Below, piece after piece: positions 2 to 7,746 of a stretch of DNA of 10,000 bases (position 1 is its first letter; every line of letters begins with the position of its first letter). The translations under genes and the position numbers were made by a program. The stretch is from positions 1-10,000 of the forward strand of contig NZ_JAIWNS010000060.1 in the NCBI RefSeq assembly GCF_020216685.1. Direction: 5' to 3'. The DNA comes from Methanospirillum hungatei (GTDB lineage Archaea; Halobacteriota; Methanomicrobia; Methanomicrobiales; Methanospirillaceae). Under the pieces are notes generated by a model that saw only the letters and a program-made list of their open reading frames with translations, did no database searches and was not told the DNA's origin.

Positions 2-430
2 CCTGGACCCCGAACCATGATCCCATATGAAGGAAACATTATACTTGCCAGCCATGACCAGGTGGCAATCGATGCCATTAGTGCAAAAATCATGGGCTTT
101 GATCCTATGCAAATACCGTTCATTAAAATGGCACATGATGAAGGGCTCGGATGTGGTGACCCGGACCAGATAAAGATCCTGGGTGATGATATTTCTCAAC
201 TCAATTTCAAATTTTTTACCGGGAAGAGTCCTGTTGTTGCAGGAGATCAACTCTTTCGAAAAGGAAAGTTATCTTTTTTTGAGCCATTGATCTTTAAAAC
301 ATCTCTATTCATGTTTGCGGTCTTTGGATCAGCTTTTTATCATGATTATTTATGGTACAACCTGATTGGAAGAAGCAGGATACGGAAATTCTCTAAAACA
401 CCCTGGGGCAGACTCTTTGATCAGTATTAA
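2..430 (+). CDS. DUF362 family protein, C-terminal part (5' end outside window)
   Basis: The reading frame is open from the left edge (base 2) to TAA at 428-430, so only the C-terminal ~142 residues are visible. The edge reads PGPRTMIPYEGN, followed by an ILASHDQVAIDAISAKIMGF stretch, an AHDEGLGCGDPDQIKILGDD stretch and a hydrophobic tail. The order GPRTM / DQVAIDA / GLGxGDP is the usual C-terminal signature of DUF362 proteins, a family of unsettled function often found with iron-sulfur domains in methanogens. The Met at 17 is internal to that conserved block, so I treat the gene as truncated by the window and not as starting there. The last ~50 residues contain a hydrophobic segment (roughly LIFKTSLFMFAVFGSAF) and a basic end, suggesting membrane contact. 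The next gene begins inside its 3' end, so it is probably the same transcript. Confidence 0.8.
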   Translation, partial: PGPRTMIPYEGNIILASHDQVAIDAISAKIMGFDPMQIPFIKMAHDEGLGCGDPDQIKILGDDISQLNFKFFTGKSPVVAGDQLFRKGKLSFFEPLIFKTSLFMFAVFGSAFYHDYLWYNLIGRSRIRKFSKTPWGRLFDQY

Positions 431-1268
431 ACCAGCCTTACAACTCATCAGGGTGAAACAGTGGTACAAGAATCTTCTCGTTCTGACACCGCTTCTCTTT
501 GGAAATCTTCTGTTCTCACCGGATGCTTTGTTATCAGTGATTGATGCAACCCTGGTTTTTTGTGCAGTATCTGGTATTATATATATTCTCAACGATATCA
601 GGGATAAGGATCGGGATTCTCACCACCTGAAAAAAAAGAATAGACCACTACCATCCGGTGCGGTATCAGTAAATGAAGCATGGATTATTGCAATTATTTT
701 TCTCATCTTTACAATAATCGCAATGATCCCAATGAATCTCCTTTTTATTGGTATTATTGGATTCTATGTGATTCAGAACCTCGCGTACACATTCTGGCTC
801 AAGAATCTGGTTATTGTCGATGTAATTATCATCGGTGTCGGTTTTGTTCTTCGCGTTCTTGCAGGTTGTATTGCAGCAGATCTATACCTCTCTCCATGGT
901 TATTTACGGCAACTTTTCTCATAGCGTTAATGCTTGGTTTTTCAAAACGGTATTCAGAAATGATAACCACAGAATCTGCCATAACTCATCGCCCGGTCCT
1001 TGGTGAGTATAATAGTACAGTACTTCAGGGATACCTGATTTTATCATCTACTGCAGCACTGATTGTATACCTCATTTATGCCATTACCGGAGCACATACC
1101 CATTATTTTGTCCTTACGATTCCGTTTGCAGTATATGGTATTTTTTCATTCCTGGCAAAATCCCTCATTTCAGGTCTTGATCCAGATGATCTTCTGAAAG
1201 ATTATGCATTTCTAACAAATCTTATTCTTTGGTTTGCAGTGGTGGTGCTGGTTCTGTATGGACTCTGA
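417..1268 (+). CDS. UbiA-superfamily prenyltransferase, DPPR synthase-like (polyprenyl-phosphate phosphoribosyltransferase)
   Basis: Integral membrane enzyme, predicted to join a polyprenyl phosphate to an activated phosphosugar (PRPP in the mycobacterial relative Rv3806c). From the TTG at 417 it has 283 residues and about eight or nine hydrophobic segments. Visible motifs: RVKQWYKNLLVLTPL near residues 12-26; the Mg-binding NDxxDxxxD motif (N59, D60, D63, D67) followed by KKKNRPLPSG; VDVIIIGVGFVLRVLAG near 134-150; SKRYSEM near 176-182; and a late PDDLLKDYAFL block. The RP-K-QW-KN start, the LR-LAG motif, the KRY motif and the acidic late block are features of DPPR synthases, not of heme O or menaquinone UbiA enzymes. 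Start: no ATG is available; TTG 417 lies 8 nt after GGGG and fits the family N-terminus. TTG 366 would add 17 residues and overlap the upstream gene by 65 bp. The substrate is inferred. Confidence 0.82.
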   Translation: MISIKPALQLIRVKQWYKNLLVLTPLLFGNLLFSPDALLSVIDATLVFCAVSGIIYILNDIRDKDRDSHHLKKKNRPLPSGAVSVNEAWIIAIIFLIFTIIAMIPMNLLFIGIIGFYVIQNLAYTFWLKNLVIVDVIIIGVGFVLRVLAGCIAADLYLSPWLFTATFLIALMLGFSKRYSEMITTESAITHRPVLGEYNSTVLQGYLILSSTAALIVYLIYAITGAHTHYFVLTIPFAVYGIFSFLAKSLISGLDPDDLLKDYAFLTNLILWFAVVVLVLYGL

Positions 1269-1923
1269 TAATATCATCCTGGATATGCATATACACTCAC
1301 ATTATTCCCGGGATAGTATTCTCTCTCTCAAAGAAATTAGTTCATATGCGAGAAGAGAAGGTGTAACGCCTGTAATCTGCGATCATAATTCCATTCAGGG
1401 ATCCCTGAAGTATAACCAGTTGGATTATTTTCATGATGACCATGTCCCCTCAATAATTTCCGCAGAGATAAAAACAACAAAAGGAGAGATTATCGGCCTT
1501 TTTATAAATGAGGAGATCCCCCCTTATCTTTCTCCTGAAGAAACACTGGATATTATTATGGATCAGGGTGGGATTGCCGTTATTCCACATCCTGGAGACA
1601 GGTACCGGAAGAGTGCAATGAAGTATGAAATAATATCTTCTCTTTTGCCCAAGATCCATACAATAGAGGTTTATAATTCACGGACATTATCACCAGGAGA
1701 TATTATTTCAGCAAAAAAATATGCAACAGAACACGGTTTGTTAGTGACCGGGGGTTCTGATGCTCATTGCCGGTGGGAACTTTTTCGAACAACGGTTCGC
1801 ATAGCACCTTTTGACAGTCCAAAAGAATTTCTCAAAAACCTTCGTTATGCAGATATCAGGTATAAAAGGAGTCTCCCTATGTATCATCTCATATCAATAA
1901 TGTCCAGGAGATTGAGAAAATGA
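1258..1923 (+). CDS. PHP-domain metallophosphoesterase
   Basis: Predicted cytosolic metal-dependent phosphoesterase of the PHP (polymerase and histidinol phosphatase) superfamily, 221 residues. All expected metal ligands are visible: HxH in DMHIHSHYS (H11, H13), the CDHN block (D42, H43), E70 in the ISAEI strand, the IPHPGD block (H111), the TIEVYN strand (E137) and the GSDAH motif (D168, H170). No polymerase or other domain is attached, as in the small stand-alone PHP enzymes that hydrolyse phosphomonoesters or nucleotides. I chose ATG 1258 because GGTGGTG at 1241-1247 is a good ribosome-binding site 10 nt upstream; ATG 1234 lies in frame but adds a Trp/Cys-rich stretch unlike the family. 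It overlaps the UbiA-type gene by 11 bp and the next gene by 4 bp, so coupled translation is likely. One idea is that it removes the 5-phosphate from the UbiA product; that is inference. Confidence 0.85.
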   Translation: MDSDNIILDMHIHSHYSRDSILSLKEISSYARREGVTPVICDHNSIQGSLKYNQLDYFHDDHVPSIISAEIKTTKGEIIGLFINEEIPPYLSPEETLDIIMDQGGIAVIPHPGDRYRKSAMKYEIISSLLPKIHTIEVYNSRTLSPGDIISAKKYATEHGLLVTGGSDAHCRWELFRTTVRIAPFDSPKEFLKNLRYADIRYKRSLPMYHLISIMSRRLRK

Positions 1924-2858
1924 AAAAATTTCCCATTCATCGATATATCTGGATGATTATATTCGCTGTAGCTCTTTATGCCATTTTTATCATCTATTCC
2001 AGTTTTGATCAGACGGTACAAATTATTTCTTCTTTTCCATTCGTTTTGTTTATTATAATGCTTTTTTTTGCGTTTGTTAATTATCTTGTACGGTTTGTAA
2101 AATGGGAATACTTACTGAGAAGGATTGATGTTCGGATTACCTTTCTTACGAGTTTTTTATGTTTTTTCTCAGGGTTTTCTATGACTCTGACACCGGCGAA
2201 AAGTGGAGAACTCATCAAACCATGGCTGCTCACGAGGCTCGGTTATGATCCCGGCCATATTGCTCCCGTGGTCCTCATCGAGAGGGTGACTGATCTTTTT
2301 GGTATGATTTTTCTCCTGTTAGTGAGCGCTGCATTTCTTGGAATTGGAATAGTTCCCGGGATACTATTGTGTATCACTCTCATTTTATTGGTCTTTCTTA
2401 TTCAAAATGACAGATTTGTAGGGTGGTTACGAGATCGGATCTCGAAATCGAATCACGTGAGTAGATTTCTGCCGATTTTTGATACATTAATGTACTCCAC
2501 CAGGATTCTTTCCGGTCCCGGGCCTCTGCTGGCAGGTGTTCTGCTCTCAAGTGTTTCATGGTTTTTTGAATGCCTTTGTCTCTCACTTGCACTTGAAGGT
2601 CTCGGATATCCGGTACATATTATGGTTTCAGTTTTCGTCTTTGCAAGTTCAACCTTAGCGGGATTATTGGTCATGATTCCGGGAGGTCTTGGAGCAACTG
2701 AGGGACTTATGACCGTTCTGATTACTGCTGAAAAAGTTCCCCTGGATGCAGCAGTTTCTGCAACATTACTTACCCGGGTTGCAACGCTCTGGTTTGCTGT
2801 GGGTTTGGGTATGCTGGCATTATTTATTTTTAATTTCATATTTCCGGAGACAGAGTGA
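1920..2858 (+). CDS. YbhN/AglD/MprF-type membrane protein (lysylphosphatidylglycerol synthase TM family, UPF0104)
   Basis: Multispanning membrane protein of 312 residues with about seven or eight hydrophobic segments. Family signatures are visible: SGFSMTLTPAKSGELIKPWL around residues 84-103 (the TPxKxGE motif), VVLIERVTDLFG around 117-128, and IPGGLGATEG at 253-262. These three blocks, in this order, mark the lysylphosphatidylglycerol-synthase transmembrane family (PF03706), which includes the flippase part of MprF and archaeal AglD. The catalytic aminoacyl-transferase domain of MprF is absent, as is a glycosyltransferase-2 domain, so this is the membrane module alone. ATG 1920 overlaps the preceding TGA (ATGA), a classical coupled start, preceded by GGAGATTGAG. 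Proposed roles in the family are lipid or lipid-linked sugar translocation; next to a polyprenyl-phosphate enzyme, a flippase role is attractive but inferred. Confidence 0.83.
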   Translation: MKKFPIHRYIWMIIFAVALYAIFIIYSSFDQTVQIISSFPFVLFIIMLFFAFVNYLVRFVKWEYLLRRIDVRITFLTSFLCFFSGFSMTLTPAKSGELIKPWLLTRLGYDPGHIAPVVLIERVTDLFGMIFLLLVSAAFLGIGIVPGILLCITLILLVFLIQNDRFVGWLRDRISKSNHVSRFLPIFDTLMYSTRILSGPGPLLAGVLLSSVSWFFECLCLSLALEGLGYPVHIMVSVFVFASSTLAGLLVMIPGGLGATEGLMTVLITAEKVPLDAAVSATLLTRVATLWFAVGLGMLALFIFNFIFPETE

Positions 2859-2965
2859 GTATGGTAGAGAAAAAATTCACCCATTTTTTCATAATATAAT
2901 TATCTCCCTTCAGATGAAAAACGAACAGATAATGCAATACGTATTGAGAAAAAGATGAAAATGGG
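2859..2965 (+). promoter_or_regulatory. Intergenic gap with weak box A-like element
   Basis: The 107-bp gap contains an AT-rich element CATAATATAATTAT (2890-2903), preceded by a T6 run (2884-2889). It could be a TATA box with transcription starting near 2920, or the T-run could be a partial terminator of the upstream unit. Two tiny ORFs here (12 and 14 codons, ATG 2861 and ATG 2914) have no coding support. No Shine-Dalgarno stronger than a GGG is seen before ATG 2966. Confidence 0.35.
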
Positions 2966-4315
2966 ATGTTGAGTCACAATAAATTCTTCCAAAAAGATTC
3001 AAAAATTGCGTTATTGCTACTTTTGATTGTTTTTACCGTGTATTTACTTTGTCCGGTGATTACTTCGTATGATTCGAAATATTCAATCCCCCTTGCGAAA
3101 AGTATTCTAAATGAGGGAAATTTCAACTTAGATGAGTTTATATCACCAGATAATGAACAGGATTATCGAATAATCAAGATTCATGAACATTATTTTTCTT
3201 ATTTCCCATATGGGAGTTCGATAATCGCGGTTCCCTTTGTTTATTTTCTGGATCTCATCCTGCATTCTTCCAAACATCATATTGAAAATATGATGGTATT
3301 TATTTGGGAAGGGATTGGATTAAACCCAAATCTCATTTTAAACGTGACTCAGAATGATACATTGTTTGATTTGTTATATGAAAAGATCATTGCATCATGT
3401 ATTGCTGCACTCTGTGTTGTTATTTTCTATTTTATTGCCAGAAAATATTTGGATAATAATTATGCTATTTTTCTATCCCTGATTTTTGCTTTTGCAACAT
3501 CATTATGGTCCGTTGCAAGTAGAGGATTCTGGATGCATGGTCCGTCGATTCTATTCCTGGAATTGGCATTTCTAGGAATGTTATATGCAAAAGAAAAACC
3601 ACATCTCTCAATTTATATCGGGGTTCCACTCAGTATCGCATACATTATCCGCCCCACAAATGCCATTGCTCTGGTTCTTTTTTCGTTATACTTGCTCTAT
3701 TGCAGTCGAGACAATTATAAAAGAATTTTCAAGTATTGCATTCTTACAATACTGCCGCTTTTACTATTTGCAGCTCTAAATCTATCTATTTACCATGCAT
3801 TTTTACCGCAATATTTTTTTGCCGAAAGAGTCGCACACATTTCACCCCTTTTTTTTGAGGCCCTGATAGGGAACATTCTCTCTCCTGCAAGGGGTCTCCT
3901 AATTTTTTCTCCGATTTTTTTGTTAAGTATCTATGGTATATATTTAAAAATAAAAACCAAGACATTTGAGACGCTTGATCTTATCATTATTGCTACAATA
4001 TTTTCCCATTGGATGGTAATATCCATGTACCCTCATTGGTGGGCTGGTCATTCATATGGATCACGGTTTTTCCTGGATGTCAATCCATTTCTTCTCTATT
4101 TTATAATCCCCGTTTTTTCAAAAATATCTATAGCAAAATCTTCTTCAAAGTATGGTATGATTTCAGTGCTGATCCTTTTACTTGGTATCAGTTTTTTTAT
4201 TCATTTAAAGGGGGCTGTAACATATGGAGTATGGGAGTGGAATAGTATGCCGCTGAATGTTGATGATAATCCCTGGAGAATCTGGAATATACATGATATT
4301 CAATTTTTAAGGTAG
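2966..4315 (+). CDS. GT-C-like membrane protein, putative polyprenyl-phosphate-sugar-dependent glycosyltransferase
   Basis: A 449-residue integral membrane protein with about ten hydrophobic segments, the first at residues 14-32. It is followed by an outside-facing loop with acidic residues (TSYDSKYS near 33-40, NFNLDEF near 52-58), the position where GT-C glycosyltransferases carry their catalytic Asp/Glu. Other recognisable blocks are SRGFWMHGPS (185-194), IIRPTNA (227-233), LSPARGLLIFSP (305-316) and PHWWAGHSYGSRFFLD (356-371). I know these from uncharacterised archaeal and bacterial membrane proteins resembling PMT/ArnT (GT39-like) enzymes, but cannot name donor or acceptor. ATG 2966 is the first start after an in-frame stop at 2945. 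Very AT-rich with long T-runs; its 107-bp separation from the preceding overlapping set leaves its membership of that transcript open. TAG ends it at 4313-4315. Confidence 0.62.
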   Translation: MLSHNKFFQKDSKIALLLLLIVFTVYLLCPVITSYDSKYSIPLAKSILNEGNFNLDEFISPDNEQDYRIIKIHEHYFSYFPYGSSIIAVPFVYFLDLILHSSKHHIENMMVFIWEGIGLNPNLILNVTQNDTLFDLLYEKIIASCIAALCVVIFYFIARKYLDNNYAIFLSLIFAFATSLWSVASRGFWMHGPSILFLELAFLGMLYAKEKPHLSIYIGVPLSIAYIIRPTNAIALVLFSLYLLYCSRDNYKRIFKYCILTILPLLLFAALNLSIYHAFLPQYFFAERVAHISPLFFEALIGNILSPARGLLIFSPIFLLSIYGIYLKIKTKTFETLDLIIIATIFSHWMVISMYPHWWAGHSYGSRFFLDVNPFLLYFIIPVFSKISIAKSSSKYGMISVLILLLGISFFIHLKGAVTYGVWEWNSMPLNVDDNPWRIWNIHDIQFLR

Positions 4316-4331
4316 TATCTTTAAATATGGG

Positions 4332-4408
4332 TGGGATATCCCATTCTCTCGATTTTGAAGCAGGCAAAGCTTGATCAGGATATTTTTGAGACTTGAAATA
4401 ATTTTTTT
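4332..4408 (+). terminator. Oligo-T region after the membrane gene set (possible archaeal terminator)
   Basis: After the stop at 4315 there is a perfect 12-bp palindrome TGGGATATCCCA (4332-4343), then T5 at 4383-4387 and T7 at 4402-4408. Archaeal RNA polymerase terminates at oligo-T tracts, so the T7 run just before the pheS promoter is the likeliest end of the upstream transcript. The palindrome can form only a short stem and may be unrelated. Confidence 0.4.
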
Positions 4409-4429
4409 ACTCTCATCCCGATCCCCATC

Positions 4430-4438
4430 CTATAAATA
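4430..4438 (+). promoter_or_regulatory. Box A (TATA) promoter of the pheS-pheT unit
   Basis: CTATAAATA at 4430-4438 is a close match to the archaeal TATA consensus and stands out in a stretch ending in a C-rich ATCCCCATC block. The usual 25-27 nt spacing puts the transcription start near 4460. That leaves only about 10 nt before the leader ORF at 4470 and about 210 nt before pheS, so the pheS transcript would have a long leader. No competing TATA-like element lies closer to pheS. Confidence 0.6.
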
Positions 4439-4469
4439 CTAATCACAGGAAACACTATATCAGACTTTC

Positions 4470-4529
4470 ATGAGCACTATCGGATCATTCTCTCCATTCT
4501 TTTCCTGCTCATTCTTTCCGTTTAGATAG
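4470..4529 (+). CDS. Putative Phe-rich leader peptide of the pheST operon (19 aa)
   Basis: ATG at 4470 opens a 19-codon ORF ending in TAG at 4527-4529: MSTIGSFSPFFSCSFFPFR. Six of 19 residues are Phe (codons at 4488, 4497, 4500, 4512, 4515 and 4521; three TTC and three TTT). It begins about 10 nt after the transcription start predicted from the TATA box at 4430, so it would be the first thing translated, with little or no Shine-Dalgarno (short-leader initiation). It lies 143 bp upstream of the gene for the Phe-tRNA synthetase alpha subunit, and its stop codon is in the base of a strong hairpin. In E. coli the Phe-rich pheM leader peptide controls pheST by attenuation. The same logic here is inference, and the pyrimidine-rich tract could give Phe/Ser/Pro codons by chance. 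Confidence 0.5.
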   Translation: MSTIGSFSPFFSCSFFPFR

Positions 4530-4555
4530 GGGTCTGGACTAAACCGGGCCCCTGT
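4526..4555 (+). promoter_or_regulatory. GC-rich leader hairpin directly after the Phe-rich ORF (attenuator candidate)
   Basis: Arm AGGGGTCTGG (4528-4537), loop ACTAAA (4538-4543), arm CCGGGCCCCT (4544-4553): ten continuous pairs with two G-U wobbles, extendable by U4527-G4554 and A4526-U4555. It contains the leader stop codon in its 5' arm, so a ribosome at the stop would block it and one stalled at early Phe codons would leave it free. No U-tract follows (next bases GTAATAATCGATTAC, which can form a weak 5-bp hairpin at 4554-4568), so it is not a standard intrinsic terminator. Confidence 0.5.
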
Positions 4556-4598
4556 AATAATCGATTACTGTTACCGTAGGTTATCTGGAGACATATTC

Positions 4599-4682
4599 AT
4601 GCAGCACATACAAAAAACGCAAAACCCAATCCATACGCAGAAACTGACATTTGGATTACATGTGGAGATATCATGCAATTAA
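4599..4682 (+). CDS. Putative 27-aa upstream mini-ORF overlapping the pheS start
   Basis: ATG 4599 is preceded by TGGAGA (4586-4591) at good Shine-Dalgarno spacing and opens 27 codons (MQHIQKTQNPIHTQ...) to TAA at 4680-4682, overlapping the pheS ATG (4673) by 10 bp in another frame. The peptide has no recognisable features and only one Phe. Its value, if real, would be translational coupling to pheS. The pheS frame itself is open up to a TAG at 4577 but has no upstream start codon, so this is not a pheS extension. Weakly supported: it could be chance. Confidence 0.25.
   Translation: MQHIQKTQNPIHTQKLTFGLHVEISCN
4662..4667 (+). promoter_or_regulatory. Shine-Dalgarno of pheS
   Basis: GTGGAG lies 5 nt upstream of ATG 4673 and fixes that start. 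Six bases of it (TGGAGA, 4663-4668) are complementary to TCTCCA at 4491-4496 in the leader ORF. Confidence 0.6.
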
Positions 4683-6109
4683 CCCTGAATGAGAAACGTC
4701 TGCTTCTAGAGCTCGTAAAAACTGAAACCACGACTCCGGAAGAGATGGGAATAATCCTTGACCGGCCTGCTGATTCAGTCGTTCAGTATGGAGGACTCCT
4801 CTCACAGAAAGGGCTTGCAACCGTTGATCGCTCGGTAACAACCACCCTCTCCCTGACAACCGAAGGAGAACAGTACCTGGCAGAAGGAGTTCCTGAGCGG
4901 CAACTCTACAACAGTTTTGAGGAGTCAGCCTCTATTGCTGATCTGAATCGACATCCTCATGCAAAGATTGGGCTTGGGTGGATGAAGCGGCTTGGCTGGG
5001 TAAAAATAGAAGCCGGAAATGTCATCAAGACCGGTGATGCCGCTCCGTCTCCGATTGAGATCGCTCTGAAGAACCCGGATGCTGCTCCCGCTGACATCAG
5101 AAAAGATCTTCTCAAACGTGGCCTTGTTACCGAAGAAGAGTCAGTCAGGTATACAATCACTATCACCGATGAAGGGAAAAAACTCGCCGCTGCCGGGATC
5201 ACGCTTACTGAAGAGACCGGGACACTGACTGCCGACCAGATCAGTTCTGGGGCCTGGAGAGATCTCTCCCTTCGCCGGTATGACATCACCAAACACCCCC
5301 GTCCGGTCTGGCCCGGGAAGATCCATCCCTATCAGCGGATGATCGATGAGATGCGGCGGATCCTCCTTGATATGGGTTTTACCGAGCTTCATGGAAGTAT
5401 CATTCAGGGAGCTTTCTGGAATTTTGATGCCCTGTTCCAGCCACAGGACCACCCGGCCAGGGAGATGCAGGACACCTTCCACCTTGCCGGAAAGCAGGAA
5501 CTCCCGGTCGGCTGGGAGAAAGTCCGTGATATGCATGAATCAGGAGGTGACACCTCGTCAACCGGATGGGGCGGGAAGTGGGATCCTGAAAAGGCAAAAG
5601 CAACCGTGCTCCGGACTCATACAACCAGTCTTTCCATCCAGCACCTGGCTGCACACCCGGAGCCACCGGTCAAGGCTTTCTGTATCGGCCGGGTATACCG
5701 CCGGGAAGCAATCGATCCAACCCATCTTCCGGAGTTTGAACAACTGGAGGGAATCGTCATGGATACTCATGTAAACTTCCGGAACCTTCTTGGATACCTG
5801 AAAGAGTTTTACGGGAGAATGGGATTTGAATCGGTCCGGTTCAGACCCGGATACTTCCCCTACACGGAGCCCAGCGTTGAACCAGAGGTATATATAGAAG
5901 GCCTTGGCTGGGTTGAGCTTGGAGGAGCCGGTATCTTCCGGGAAGAAGTCACCGCACCCTGGGGGATCACCTGTCCGGTTCTGGCCTGGGGTCTTGGTGT
6001 CTCACGGGTTGCCATGCTGAGAATGGGGCTTACTGACCTTCGTGAACTCTACCAGAGTGATATCGACTGGGTCAGAAATATGCCGGTCGTTCAAGGGGGT
6101 CGGTGCTGA
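4673..6109 (+). CDS. pheS: Phenylalanyl-tRNA synthetase alpha subunit
   Basis: Catalytic subunit of the alpha2-beta2 class IIc synthetase that charges tRNA-Phe in the cytosol. At 478 residues it has the archaeal/eukaryotic length: an N-terminal ~200 residues of winged-helix-like repeats (two LTxEGExxLAEG-like / ITDEGKKLAAAG elements near 60-72 and 164-175) replaces the bacterial coiled coil. Catalytic region: motif 1 around PGKIHPYQRMIDEMRRILLD (214-233), the DHPAREMQDTFH block (259-270), motif 2 CIGRVYRREAIDPTHLPEFE (337-356), and motif 3 LAWGLGVSRVAMLRMGL (437-453). GGAGIFREEV (417-426) has Glu where many relatives have Pro. All essential blocks are present. ATG 4673 is the first start codon after an in-frame stop and has GTGGAG 5 nt upstream. 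The stop overlaps the pheT start. GC-rich compared with the genes before it, and preceded by a ~210-nt leader with a Phe-rich ORF. Confidence 0.97.
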   Translation: MQLTLNEKRLLLELVKTETTTPEEMGIILDRPADSVVQYGGLLSQKGLATVDRSVTTTLSLTTEGEQYLAEGVPERQLYNSFEESASIADLNRHPHAKIGLGWMKRLGWVKIEAGNVIKTGDAAPSPIEIALKNPDAAPADIRKDLLKRGLVTEEESVRYTITITDEGKKLAAAGITLTEETGTLTADQISSGAWRDLSLRRYDITKHPRPVWPGKIHPYQRMIDEMRRILLDMGFTELHGSIIQGAFWNFDALFQPQDHPAREMQDTFHLAGKQELPVGWEKVRDMHESGGDTSSTGWGGKWDPEKAKATVLRTHTTSLSIQHLAAHPEPPVKAFCIGRVYRREAIDPTHLPEFEQLEGIVMDTHVNFRNLLGYLKEFYGRMGFESVRFRPGYFPYTEPSVEPEVYIEGLGWVELGGAGIFREEVTAPWGITCPVLAWGLGVSRVAMLRMGLTDLRELYQSDIDWVRNMPVVQGGRC

Positions 6110-7746
6110 TGCCGGTTGTTTCACTCCCATACAACTATCTTGAACGCCTGTGTGGCACGGATCGGAAGACCATCATTGACCATCTTCCCATGATCGGTTC
6201 AGATATTGAACGCATCCTTGAAGACCAGGTGGATGTTGAGTTCTTCCCGTCACGGGTGGATCTCTACTCAACCGAAGGGGTAGCCCGTGCCATGCGGGGA
6301 TTCCTTGAACTTGAGACCGGGGAAGAGGTCTATCCGGTCAGTCCTTCATCTATTACGTTCTCTGTTGATGAGAACCTGAAGGAAGTCAGGCCATACATTG
6401 GTTCAGCGGTTATCAGGGACATTCAGCTTGACAATGAAGCGATCATCAGTCTCATGGGTGTGCAGGAAGCTCTGCACTGGGTCGTTGGTCGTGGAAGGGC
6501 AAAAGTTGCCATCGGTGTGCATGACCTTGACAAGGTGACCCCTCCATTCCGGTATTATGGTGCCCCGGTATCCCGATCGTTCATCCCCCTGGATTATGAC
6601 CGGGAGATGACCCTGACCGAGATCATGGAAGAGCACCCGAAAGGCCGTGATTACTCTCATATCGTGAAGGACAAGCCGGTCATGCCCCTTATTGAGGATG
6701 CAAACGGCAACGTACTCTCATTCCCGCCGATCATCAACGGAGAGTTAACCCGGGTTACCGAATCCTCGAAAAACCTCCTCCTTGATGTGACCGGGACTGA
6801 TGAGCGTGCGGTTATGACGGCTCTTAAAGTGCTCTGTACCACCCTTATCACCGCCGGAGGAAGATGTGAAAGCGTCACGGTGAACGGCGTTGTCATGCCC
6901 GACCTCTCTCCGACCCTTCGAAATATCGATGTGACATCCTGTAACAAACTTCTCGGGACCTCGTTCTCCGCAGATGAGATCGCGACCATCCTAAAGAAGA
7001 TGCGATACGGAGCAGAAAAAACTGGTGATACTACGGTCTCGGTCCGGATACCCTGCTACCGGGCAGATATCATGCATGAGTGGGATGTGTATGAGGATGT
7101 TGCCATCGGTGCCGGCTTTGGTACCCTTGAGGCAGAGCTTCCGGCAACCTTCGCAACCGGATGTGAACACCCGATTATCGCCCTTGCATCAGCAGTCCGG
7201 GATATCTGCTCCGGGCTCGGGTATCTTGAGGTCATGCCATTCACATTATCAAATGAGGAGGTCATGTATACCCGGATGCAGCGGGAGCCTGATCCGAAGG
7301 CACTTCATGTACTGCATCCGATATCTGAAGAGCAGACGCTGGTAAGGACCGATCTCCTTCCGCTCCTTCTGGATCTGCTTCGGATGAACAAGCGGCGAGA
7401 ACTGCCCCAGCGGATATTCCACACCGGAGATGTCGTCTCTTCCATGCAGACATACCAAAAACTTGCCCTTGCCTCAACTCATCCCGGAGCAGACTTCTCT
7501 GAGGCCTATGCAACGACAGATGCTTTAATGAGAGAACTCGGGATCTCCTATATTCCGGCGGAGAGTGCTGATCCGGCATTCATCCCCGGCCGTGCTGTTG
7601 ATATCATGGTTGACGGGAAGAAGATGGGTGTCTTTGGCGAGATCCACCCCGGCGTATTAAATCAGTTTGATATTGATCAGCCGGTTATCGGGATTGAGAT
7701 AGATCTCCACCTCCTCTTTCCAGGACAAAAGGAAACGAAATCTTAA
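6109..7746 (+). CDS. pheT: Phenylalanyl-tRNA synthetase beta subunit
   Basis: Partner of PheS; binds tRNA and edits mischarged Tyr-tRNA-Phe. 545 residues, the shorter archaeal/eukaryotic type without the N-terminal OB-fold (tRNA-binding) and C-terminal anticodon domains of bacterial PheT. Regions: N-terminal domain (PYNYLERLCG start, FFPSRVDLYSTEGVARAMRG near 45-64), B3/B4 editing domain about 105-225 with PPIINGELTRVTE, B5 domain about 265-340 with PCYRADIMHEWDVYEDVAIG acidic metal-site residues, and a catalytic-like core about 355-540 (LHPISEEQTLVRTDLLPLLL; PQRIFHTGDVV; VFGEIHPGVL). ATG 6109 overlaps the pheS TGA by one base, with GGGGGT and GGTG just upstream; an in-frame GTG at 6103 would add only two residues. 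Same operon as pheS, as expected for a 1:1 complex. Confidence 0.96.
   Translation: MPVVSLPYNYLERLCGTDRKTIIDHLPMIGSDIERILEDQVDVEFFPSRVDLYSTEGVARAMRGFLELETGEEVYPVSPSSITFSVDENLKEVRPYIGSAVIRDIQLDNEAIISLMGVQEALHWVVGRGRAKVAIGVHDLDKVTPPFRYYGAPVSRSFIPLDYDREMTLTEIMEEHPKGRDYSHIVKDKPVMPLIEDANGNVLSFPPIINGELTRVTESSKNLLLDVTGTDERAVMTALKVLCTTLITAGGRCESVTVNGVVMPDLSPTLRNIDVTSCNKLLGTSFSADEIATILKKMRYGAEKTGDTTVSVRIPCYRADIMHEWDVYEDVAIGAGFGTLEAELPATFATGCEHPIIALASAVRDICSGLGYLEVMPFTLSNEEVMYTRMQREPDPKALHVLHPISEEQTLVRTDLLPLLLDLLRMNKRRELPQRIFHTGDVVSSMQTYQKLALASTHPGADFSEAYATTDALMRELGISYIPAESADPAFIPGRAVDIMVDGKKMGVFGEIHPGVLNQFDIDQPVIGIEIDLHLLFPGQKETKS

Follow-up and report, generated by a model that had tools for sequence, protein, structure and literature searches.

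Why would a short, Phe-rich ORF stand between a TATA-like box and the phenylalanyl-tRNA synthetase genes of an archaeon? We analysed the window, a stretch of 10,000 nt from a Methanospirillum-like genome (G000, 300 contigs), and compared the ORF and its surroundings across the order Methanomicrobiales, with genomes surveyed at one per species, many of them incomplete. Judged from sequence, the ORF would probably serve ribosome-mediated attenuation that responds to Phe-tRNA, with induction on shortage.

A Phe-rich ORF precedes pheST

The initial annotation had described a 19-codon ORF with six Phe codons lying 143 bases 5′ of the pheS ATG (4673), and the sequence bears this out: the ORF runs from ATG to AGA TAG, and six of its 19 codons are TTT or TTC. 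The features of the locus are listed below.

4431–4438, plus strand: TATA box TATAAATA of the putative leader promoter (sequence)
4470–4529, plus strand: Phe-rich leader ORF, 19 codons, MSTIGSFSPFFSCSFFPFR, stop TAG (sequence, genus comparison)
4526–4555, plus strand: hairpin P1, arms 4526–4537 and 4544–4555, 12 bp, loop ACTAAA (RNA folding)
4553–4568, plus strand: conserved non-coding block TGTAATAATCGATTAC 3′ of P1 (genus comparison)
4587–4590, plus strand: Shine-Dalgarno-like GGAG of the second small ORF (genus comparison)
4599–4682, plus strand: second small ORF, 27 codons, its stop overlapping the pheS start (ATGCAATTAA)
4673–6109, plus strand: pheS, phenylalanine--tRNA ligase subunit alpha (NCBIfam NF003210, E 3.6e-185)
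6103–7746, plus strand: pheT, phenylalanine--tRNA ligase subunit beta, archaeal (NCBIfam TIGR00471, E 2.5e-179)

Archaeal transcription starts about 22–25 nt past the TATA box; from this spacing and the position of the box, the predicted transcription start would fall about 8–10 nt 5′ of the leader ATG. An ATG-initiated ORF of 12–35 codons with at least six Phe arose in 2 of 5000 dinucleotide shuffles of 4439–4672. The whole leader stretch (4460–4672) folded no better than its dinucleotide shuffles (z −0.91). The folding signal of the window resides in the hairpin, not in that whole stretch, and P1 starts one base before TAG, overlapping the leader stop codon.

Between the end of a DUF362-like gene and the leader, window positions 17–4315 hold membrane and sugar-transfer type genes, presumably UbiA-like, PHP, flippase-like and glycosyltransferase (labels given by eye), which occupy the place of the usual pheS upstream neighbour in relatives. 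A second complete leader element lies in the window’s genome, from position 3976 of contig C21 (L042, L048); the leader L042 is followed by about 144 pheS codons running in frame into what we take, from the sequence, to be the end of trpS. What look like pieces of a single DUF362-type gene stand at the opposite end of contig C21 and where the window begins, so the two contigs may be neighbours, and the leader may have been duplicated along with an inserted gene cluster. Elsewhere, the pheS match of G006 (C1:13820-15253, L003) carries one in-frame TAA, either an error or real.

Conservation of the locus in Methanospirillum

The Methanospirillum set comprised 12 genomes and, with the second copy in G000 (L042), 13 copies of the element; PheS identity to that of the window was 88% in Methanospirillum stamsii (L031) and 96% in G003. 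The initial annotation had proposed that a genuine leader should persist, with synonymous changes, upstream of pheS in other Methanomicrobiales. Within the genus it did: 12/12 genomes retain the ATG, a length of 19 codons and the run of Phe; TTT and TTC replace each other synonymously, and the frame is never broken. The leader was exactly 19 codons long with 5–7 Phe in all 13 copies, other leaders of the genus reading MSSLGYAPLFFFGSFFSFR and that of the most divergent genome MTITGKNSRSFFAFFFLFR, and a TATA-like box stood at a similar distance 5′ of the ATG in each. By the Nei–Gojobori method, pN/pS over the 13 copies was 0.42 in frame and 1.13 and 0.84 in the other frames (0.41 against 0.89 and 0.90 without L012), values indicating that purifying selection is acting on the leader reading frame. 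The reading of the ORF as a putative Phe leader is supported by this comparison.

The segment between leader and pheS was also conserved. The block TGTAATAATCGATTAC was identical in 11/13 copies, differing in its last base in L003 and diverged in L012. The GGAG 5′ of the second ORF was found in 12/13 copies and was absent in L012, which was also the one exception to a second ORF of 25–27 codons that ends 10 nt inside pheS. Such an end, exactly 10 nt into pheS in 12/13 copies, points to translational coupling.

Distribution across Methanomicrobiales

A pattern scan of 55 fetched pheS upstream regions found the leader in eight, six from Methanospirillum and two from genus g11. The leader of G006 (L102), with just two Phe within its last eight codons, escaped the scan. 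In the remaining 46/55 regions, all outside Methanospirillum and g11, the scan found no leader, so the expected persistence upstream of pheS did not extend to the wider order, and a general leader before Methanomicrobiales pheS is rejected. Where inspected, leaderless pheS has another gene directly upstream, which we take, from its C-terminal sequence, to be trpS. In g11 (G021, G032, G216), a leader ending in VDFFCFFR and a matching hairpin lie 5′ of pheS.

The pattern TAGGGG-N8-28-CCCCTGTA occurred at 60 places in 46/232 genomes of the order. Many genomes were matched by its reversed version as well, which makes the pattern unspecific when used alone. Fourteen places were known pheS leaders, 29 were fetched, chosen by eye for a hairpin, and 17 were left as lacking one by eye. 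Of the 29 fetched places, 27 have a leader ORF that closes with Phe-containing codons, an Arg or Ser codon and TAG; the other two (L147, L148) were chance matches inside a gene and were dropped. Most fetched elements lie 5′ of a sodium:solute symporter (TIGR00813 and PF00474 in the one scanned), with a small ORF between leader and symporter that matches ‘symporter small accessory protein’ (NF045580) in L258, the locus tested. Others lie 5′ of a LivK-like binding protein (PF13458 in the one scanned), whose best solved relative is a probable Leu/Ile/Val-binding protein, and one (L159) lies 5′ of pheS.

A covariance model, R1, built from 27 sequences and including the motif TTTMGNTAG, gave 144 matches at E 0.01 in 126/232 Methanomicrobiales genomes and 28/40 genera. 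The window leader was matched at 4512–4559 (E 8.6e-11), a match that is not independent, since the window’s own copy went into the model. A class-level search drew on the 232 genomes already searched for the order and yielded nothing further. Of 392 genomes drawn from the phylum, R1 matched 41, all of them listed at the level of the order or closer (own, genus, family).

The sodium:solute symporter had 144 matches in 142 genomes, of which 112 carried an R1 match 136–614 nt upstream. The element had been annotated as a leader of the pheST operon; with 112 of the 144 R1 matches upstream of a symporter match, it is not mainly a pheST device. By our reading, the other 32 R1 matches comprised 13 at Methanospirillum pheS, three at g11 pheS, eight at LivK-like genes and eight others, which were mostly symporter fragments and included L233 and a match in G062. 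PheRS, a solute symporter and an amino-acid-type binding protein as downstream genes fit an amino-acid response. In Methanospirillum and g11 the downstream pheST genes are cognate to the leader codons; the symporter and the LivK-like protein may be.

At L233 (G187:C19, 517–846), a Phe-rich leader and hairpin (MISPWAYRTGFFTCPCFPFTFR) are followed by a gene resembling 4a-hydroxytetrahydrobiopterin dehydratase, below the curated cut-off. In bacteria this enzyme is a partner of phenylalanine hydroxylase. The gene may be a fourth target, or a remnant left after loss of a symporter.

The check least affected by selection through pattern or model came from symporters lacking an R1 match. There were 32 of these; upstream DNA was fetched for 18, one of which (L271) was too short. 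A Phe-rich ORF followed by hairpin-forming sequence, in some cases with TAA, was present at 15/17 loci, the hairpin being computed for 11 of the 15, and no Phe-rich ORF was found at L267 and L270.

Selection for Phe codons

Across 102 collected elements, codon −2 was Phe in 102/102, codon −4 in 95 and codon −5 in 71, and the last codon was Arg in 92 and Ser in 10; the collection was made with a TAG-demanding pattern, Methanospirillum pheS homology and R1 with TTTMGNTAG, and this way of collecting accounts in part for TAG, TTT and Arg being almost invariant. The last-codon Arg is spelled AGA, AGG, CGA, CGG, CGT and CGC. Asn and Pro were also found as last residue, and TAA as stop.

The initial annotation had cautioned that its Phe codons might simply reflect a pyrimidine-rich tract. 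This concern was answered with 55 non-redundant elements. At codons −3 to −8, 169/186 all-pyrimidine codons were TTT or TTC; a pyrimidine tract would also yield CTY, TCY and CCY. Between codons −3 and −12, the true frame had Phe at 209/550 codons and the two shifted frames at 59 and 67, and codon positions 1 and 2 were mostly T and position 3 mostly C.

Leader statistics were taken from 119 of 124 elements, those without a usable start being dropped. The leaders had a median of 5 Phe (range 2–12) in a median of 22 codons, and the best TATA-like match ended 27–36 nt 5′ of the ATG in 95/119, by a simple score run without a shuffled control. Distances from the leader stop to the next start clustered at 66–73 nt. 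Five Methanospirillum symporter leaders (L145, L194–L197) have no in-frame ATG, and a TTG beside GGTAAA may be their start.

A second model, R2, was built from the stop codon onward, without the Phe codons. In 100 genomes of the family it found 79 places, 77 of which coincided with R1 loci; one of the two R2-only places was a decayed Phe leader (ending FAFFFR, with its stop changed) and the other looked like chance. No element for another amino acid was found by R2 at E 0.01 in these 100 genomes, R2 being derived from Phe-leader loci, so that distant forms could escape it. At G212:C1:2409463 (L277) lies a decayed second copy, with a Phe-rich leader whose TAG reads AAG and a degraded-looking small ORF downstream.

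Two covarying helices, P1 and P0

P1 was tested in 70 non-redundant elements out of 124, and in 70/70 its pairing began between positions −2 and +3 relative to the stop codon. The folding z averaged −2.90 and was below −2 in 53/70 elements, compared with −0.40 and 7/70 for a control window, in mononucleotide shuffles that keep base but not dinucleotide content. The stems differ widely (GGGGACC/GGTCCCC, GGAGACCGA/TCGGTCTCC, GGACTATCGG/CCGATAGTCC) and covary, with z 10.8 (n = 70) in a permutation of cognate against non-cognate arms. A T-run of at least 5 followed P1 in 6/70 elements, so that a conserved intrinsic terminator, hairpin plus U-run, is not supported. In genus g29 (L258, L259, L261, L262), leaders end in Asn with TAA stops, and the hairpins are directly followed by T-runs of 5–6, which may be stem or a true terminator form. 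A known RNA family was rejected: the Rfam scan of window 4300–4800 gave a sole match, sroC, whose 18.5 bits fall short of its gathering score of 45, and no family, T-box included, matched at the gathering score in L138, L134, L258, L252 or L196.

A second, long-range helix, P0, joins the ribosome-binding region of the leader (often GGTAAACTC 5′ of the ATG) to a strand that lies +36 to +64 relative to the stop, immediately 5′ of the following Shine-Dalgarno sequence (GAGTTTACC). Its covariation z was 6.0 (n = 69 of 70 elements, those without a usable start being dropped; L012 had been left out of an earlier P0 test), and two control segments gave 0.5 and −0.3. Covarying versions include GGTATTCAG/CTGAATACC and GGTAACGGA/TCCGTTACC. 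A P0 score of 17 was reached by 35/69 cognate pairs and by 18% of non-cognate pairs, and P0 is perhaps a feature of about half of the elements. It was not seen in the window copy, which scored 10.5, below 17, and whose would-be 5′ strand, about 10 nt after the TATA box, is probably untranscribed; the Methanospirillum pheS copy L006 has a perfect 10-base P0 match.

Ribosome position and a proposed mechanism

Folding with part of the leader masked, as by a ribosome, was computed for 51/55 elements, those without a usable start being dropped. A mask at the stop codon abolished P1, and one with the A site two codons before the stop removed most of it; masks four or six codons before left P1 in place. 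A ribosome slowed in the Phe run would thus stand where P1 begins, and a fast-moving one would clear it. P1 and P0 are structurally compatible, and no mutually exclusive antiterminator was seen. Accessibility of the downstream Shine-Dalgarno sequence was unchanged by the masks (mean of 0.31–0.35 whatever the state, over 51 elements), which gives no support to a simple switch by Shine-Dalgarno release. Pairing between leader and downstream Shine-Dalgarno sequence, visible by eye in some Methanospirillum sequences, was not kept in others and was dropped.

We infer that transcription begins just 5′ of the short ORF with its Phe-rich end, and that this ORF is translated. When Phe-tRNA is scarce, the ribosome would slow on the Phe run and its leading edge would come to rest against P1; when Phe-tRNA is ample, the ribosome would terminate and leave, and the leader RNA would close (P1, and P0 at about half of the loci). 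Ribosome position would set RNA structure, which would in turn govern how the genes that follow are expressed: pheST in Methanospirillum and its sister genus, and elsewhere the sodium:solute symporter or the LivK-like ABC transporter protein. Factor-dependent termination by FttA upon loss of coupling is a reasonable candidate for the last step; such FttA quality control is offered as a hypothesis in a passage of PMC11616081.

On balance, the comparisons favour seeing here the first archaeal leader-peptide attenuator, a Phe regulon of Methanomicrobiales in which stalling on Phe codons beside a hairpin at the stop codon controls genes. The same reading, with like reserve, would include a helix at the 5′ end in many elements, generally no T-run terminator, and as targets uptake genes, plus PheRS in Methanospirillum and the sister genus.

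Four other readings were weighed. The strongest is nascent-peptide arrest, in which the Phe-rich C-terminus ending in Phe-Arg would stall the terminating ribosome and codons would matter only as residues, the trigger possibly being binding of free Phe, as TnaC responds to Trp. Phe at codon −2 and Arg or Ser at the last codon, constant in a collection partly selected on them, would suit it, as would the six different spellings of that Arg and a P1 that abuts the stop codon. Against it, the last residue can also be Ser, Asn or Pro and the stop TAA, by eye no residue is common upstream of the Phe run while the number and position of Phe vary, and for uptake and charging genes sensing shortage makes more sense than sensing excess. 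We consider arrest unlikely.

Less probable still is a constitutive translational aid, in which leader and second ORF load or pass on ribosomes by reinitiation and coupling and no Phe is sensed. The overlap of the second ORF with pheS in 12/13 copies and the clustered distance of 66–73 nt agree with such a role, which leaves the repeated selection of Phe codons and the stop-abutting hairpin unexplained.

A functional microprotein encoded by the leader, with no regulation, would account for purifying selection on the ORF, but by eye the first half of the peptide is not conserved from genus to genus, and a hairpin is retained at the stop of the ORF, which makes this very improbable. The same low standing falls to an untranslated chance ORF in pyrimidine-rich DNA or within an RNA element such as a protein-binding or termination site: the T-rich tract and the near-invariant TTT at codon −2 and TAG, on which the collection was partly selected, speak for it, and it is rejected on frame-specific pN/pS, the codon-position bias (T, T, then C/T) and the shuffles (2/5000), alongside the constant 19 codons in Methanospirillum. 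Attenuation by ribosome slowing on Phe codons remains our preferred reading.

Comparison with known systems

Enteric pheM–pheST and the bacterial trp, his and phe leader-peptide attenuators are the obvious comparison. The elements described here share with them a short ORF near the predicted 5′ end of the transcript, cognate codons near the end of that ORF and a hairpin directly after. The likeness to pheM–pheST drawn by the initial annotation stands as far as a short ORF, a terminal Phe cluster, a hairpin after it and pheST downstream in the window are concerned; it fails for the hairpin-plus-U-run mechanism, given T-runs in 6/70. In contrast to the bacterial attenuators, the host is an archaeon, the promoter is of TATA type, a T-run after the hairpin is rare, P0 covaries in about half of the elements, and most elements stand before a symporter rather than pheST.

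The T-box riboswitch reads the charging state of tRNA to regulate genes for aminoacyl-tRNA synthetases and transporters. Sensing of tRNA charging, as we infer it here, and synthetase and transporter targets would be common to both; however, here the short ORF carries the specificity, and no Rfam match was found in the tested stretches.

As in TnaC-type arrest leaders (PMC8429421), the last codons and stop would be the site of action and C-terminal residues look conserved; here, though, nothing beyond the Phe run and a Phe-Arg/Ser end recurs, and uptake or charging genes lie downstream. Translational attenuation of the ermC type is described in a section of PMC10219788, where the position of a ribosome on a short upstream ORF alters mRNA structure before the gene, as proposed here. 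Unlike in that system, the signal here would be Phe-tRNA supply, and Shine-Dalgarno release was absent in folding.

According to a passage of PMC8448881 (2021), no transcription attenuation or antitermination mechanism was known in archaea. The introduction of PMC10219788 names archaea, along with bacteria and other organisms, among the groups in which upstream ORFs act through attenuation; the passage says so in general terms, with no archaeal example beside it. In Methanosarcina mazei, 10% of unannotated small ORFs lie in 5′ UTRs, as reported in one part of PMC11456600. No archaeal leader-peptide attenuator was found among the matches listed in a search of open PMC papers, a body that does not cover most subscription papers or preprints.

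The significance of the element rests on its presence in 28/40 genera by model search, on codon-level selection for one amino acid and on two covarying helices. If the proposed mechanism is true, it would extend ribosome-based amino-acid sensing to archaea and would provide a natural reporter for archaeal transcription–translation coupling. It would also point to Phe supply as a physiological signal acting on a symporter that many Methanomicrobiales carry and that is so far uncharacterised.
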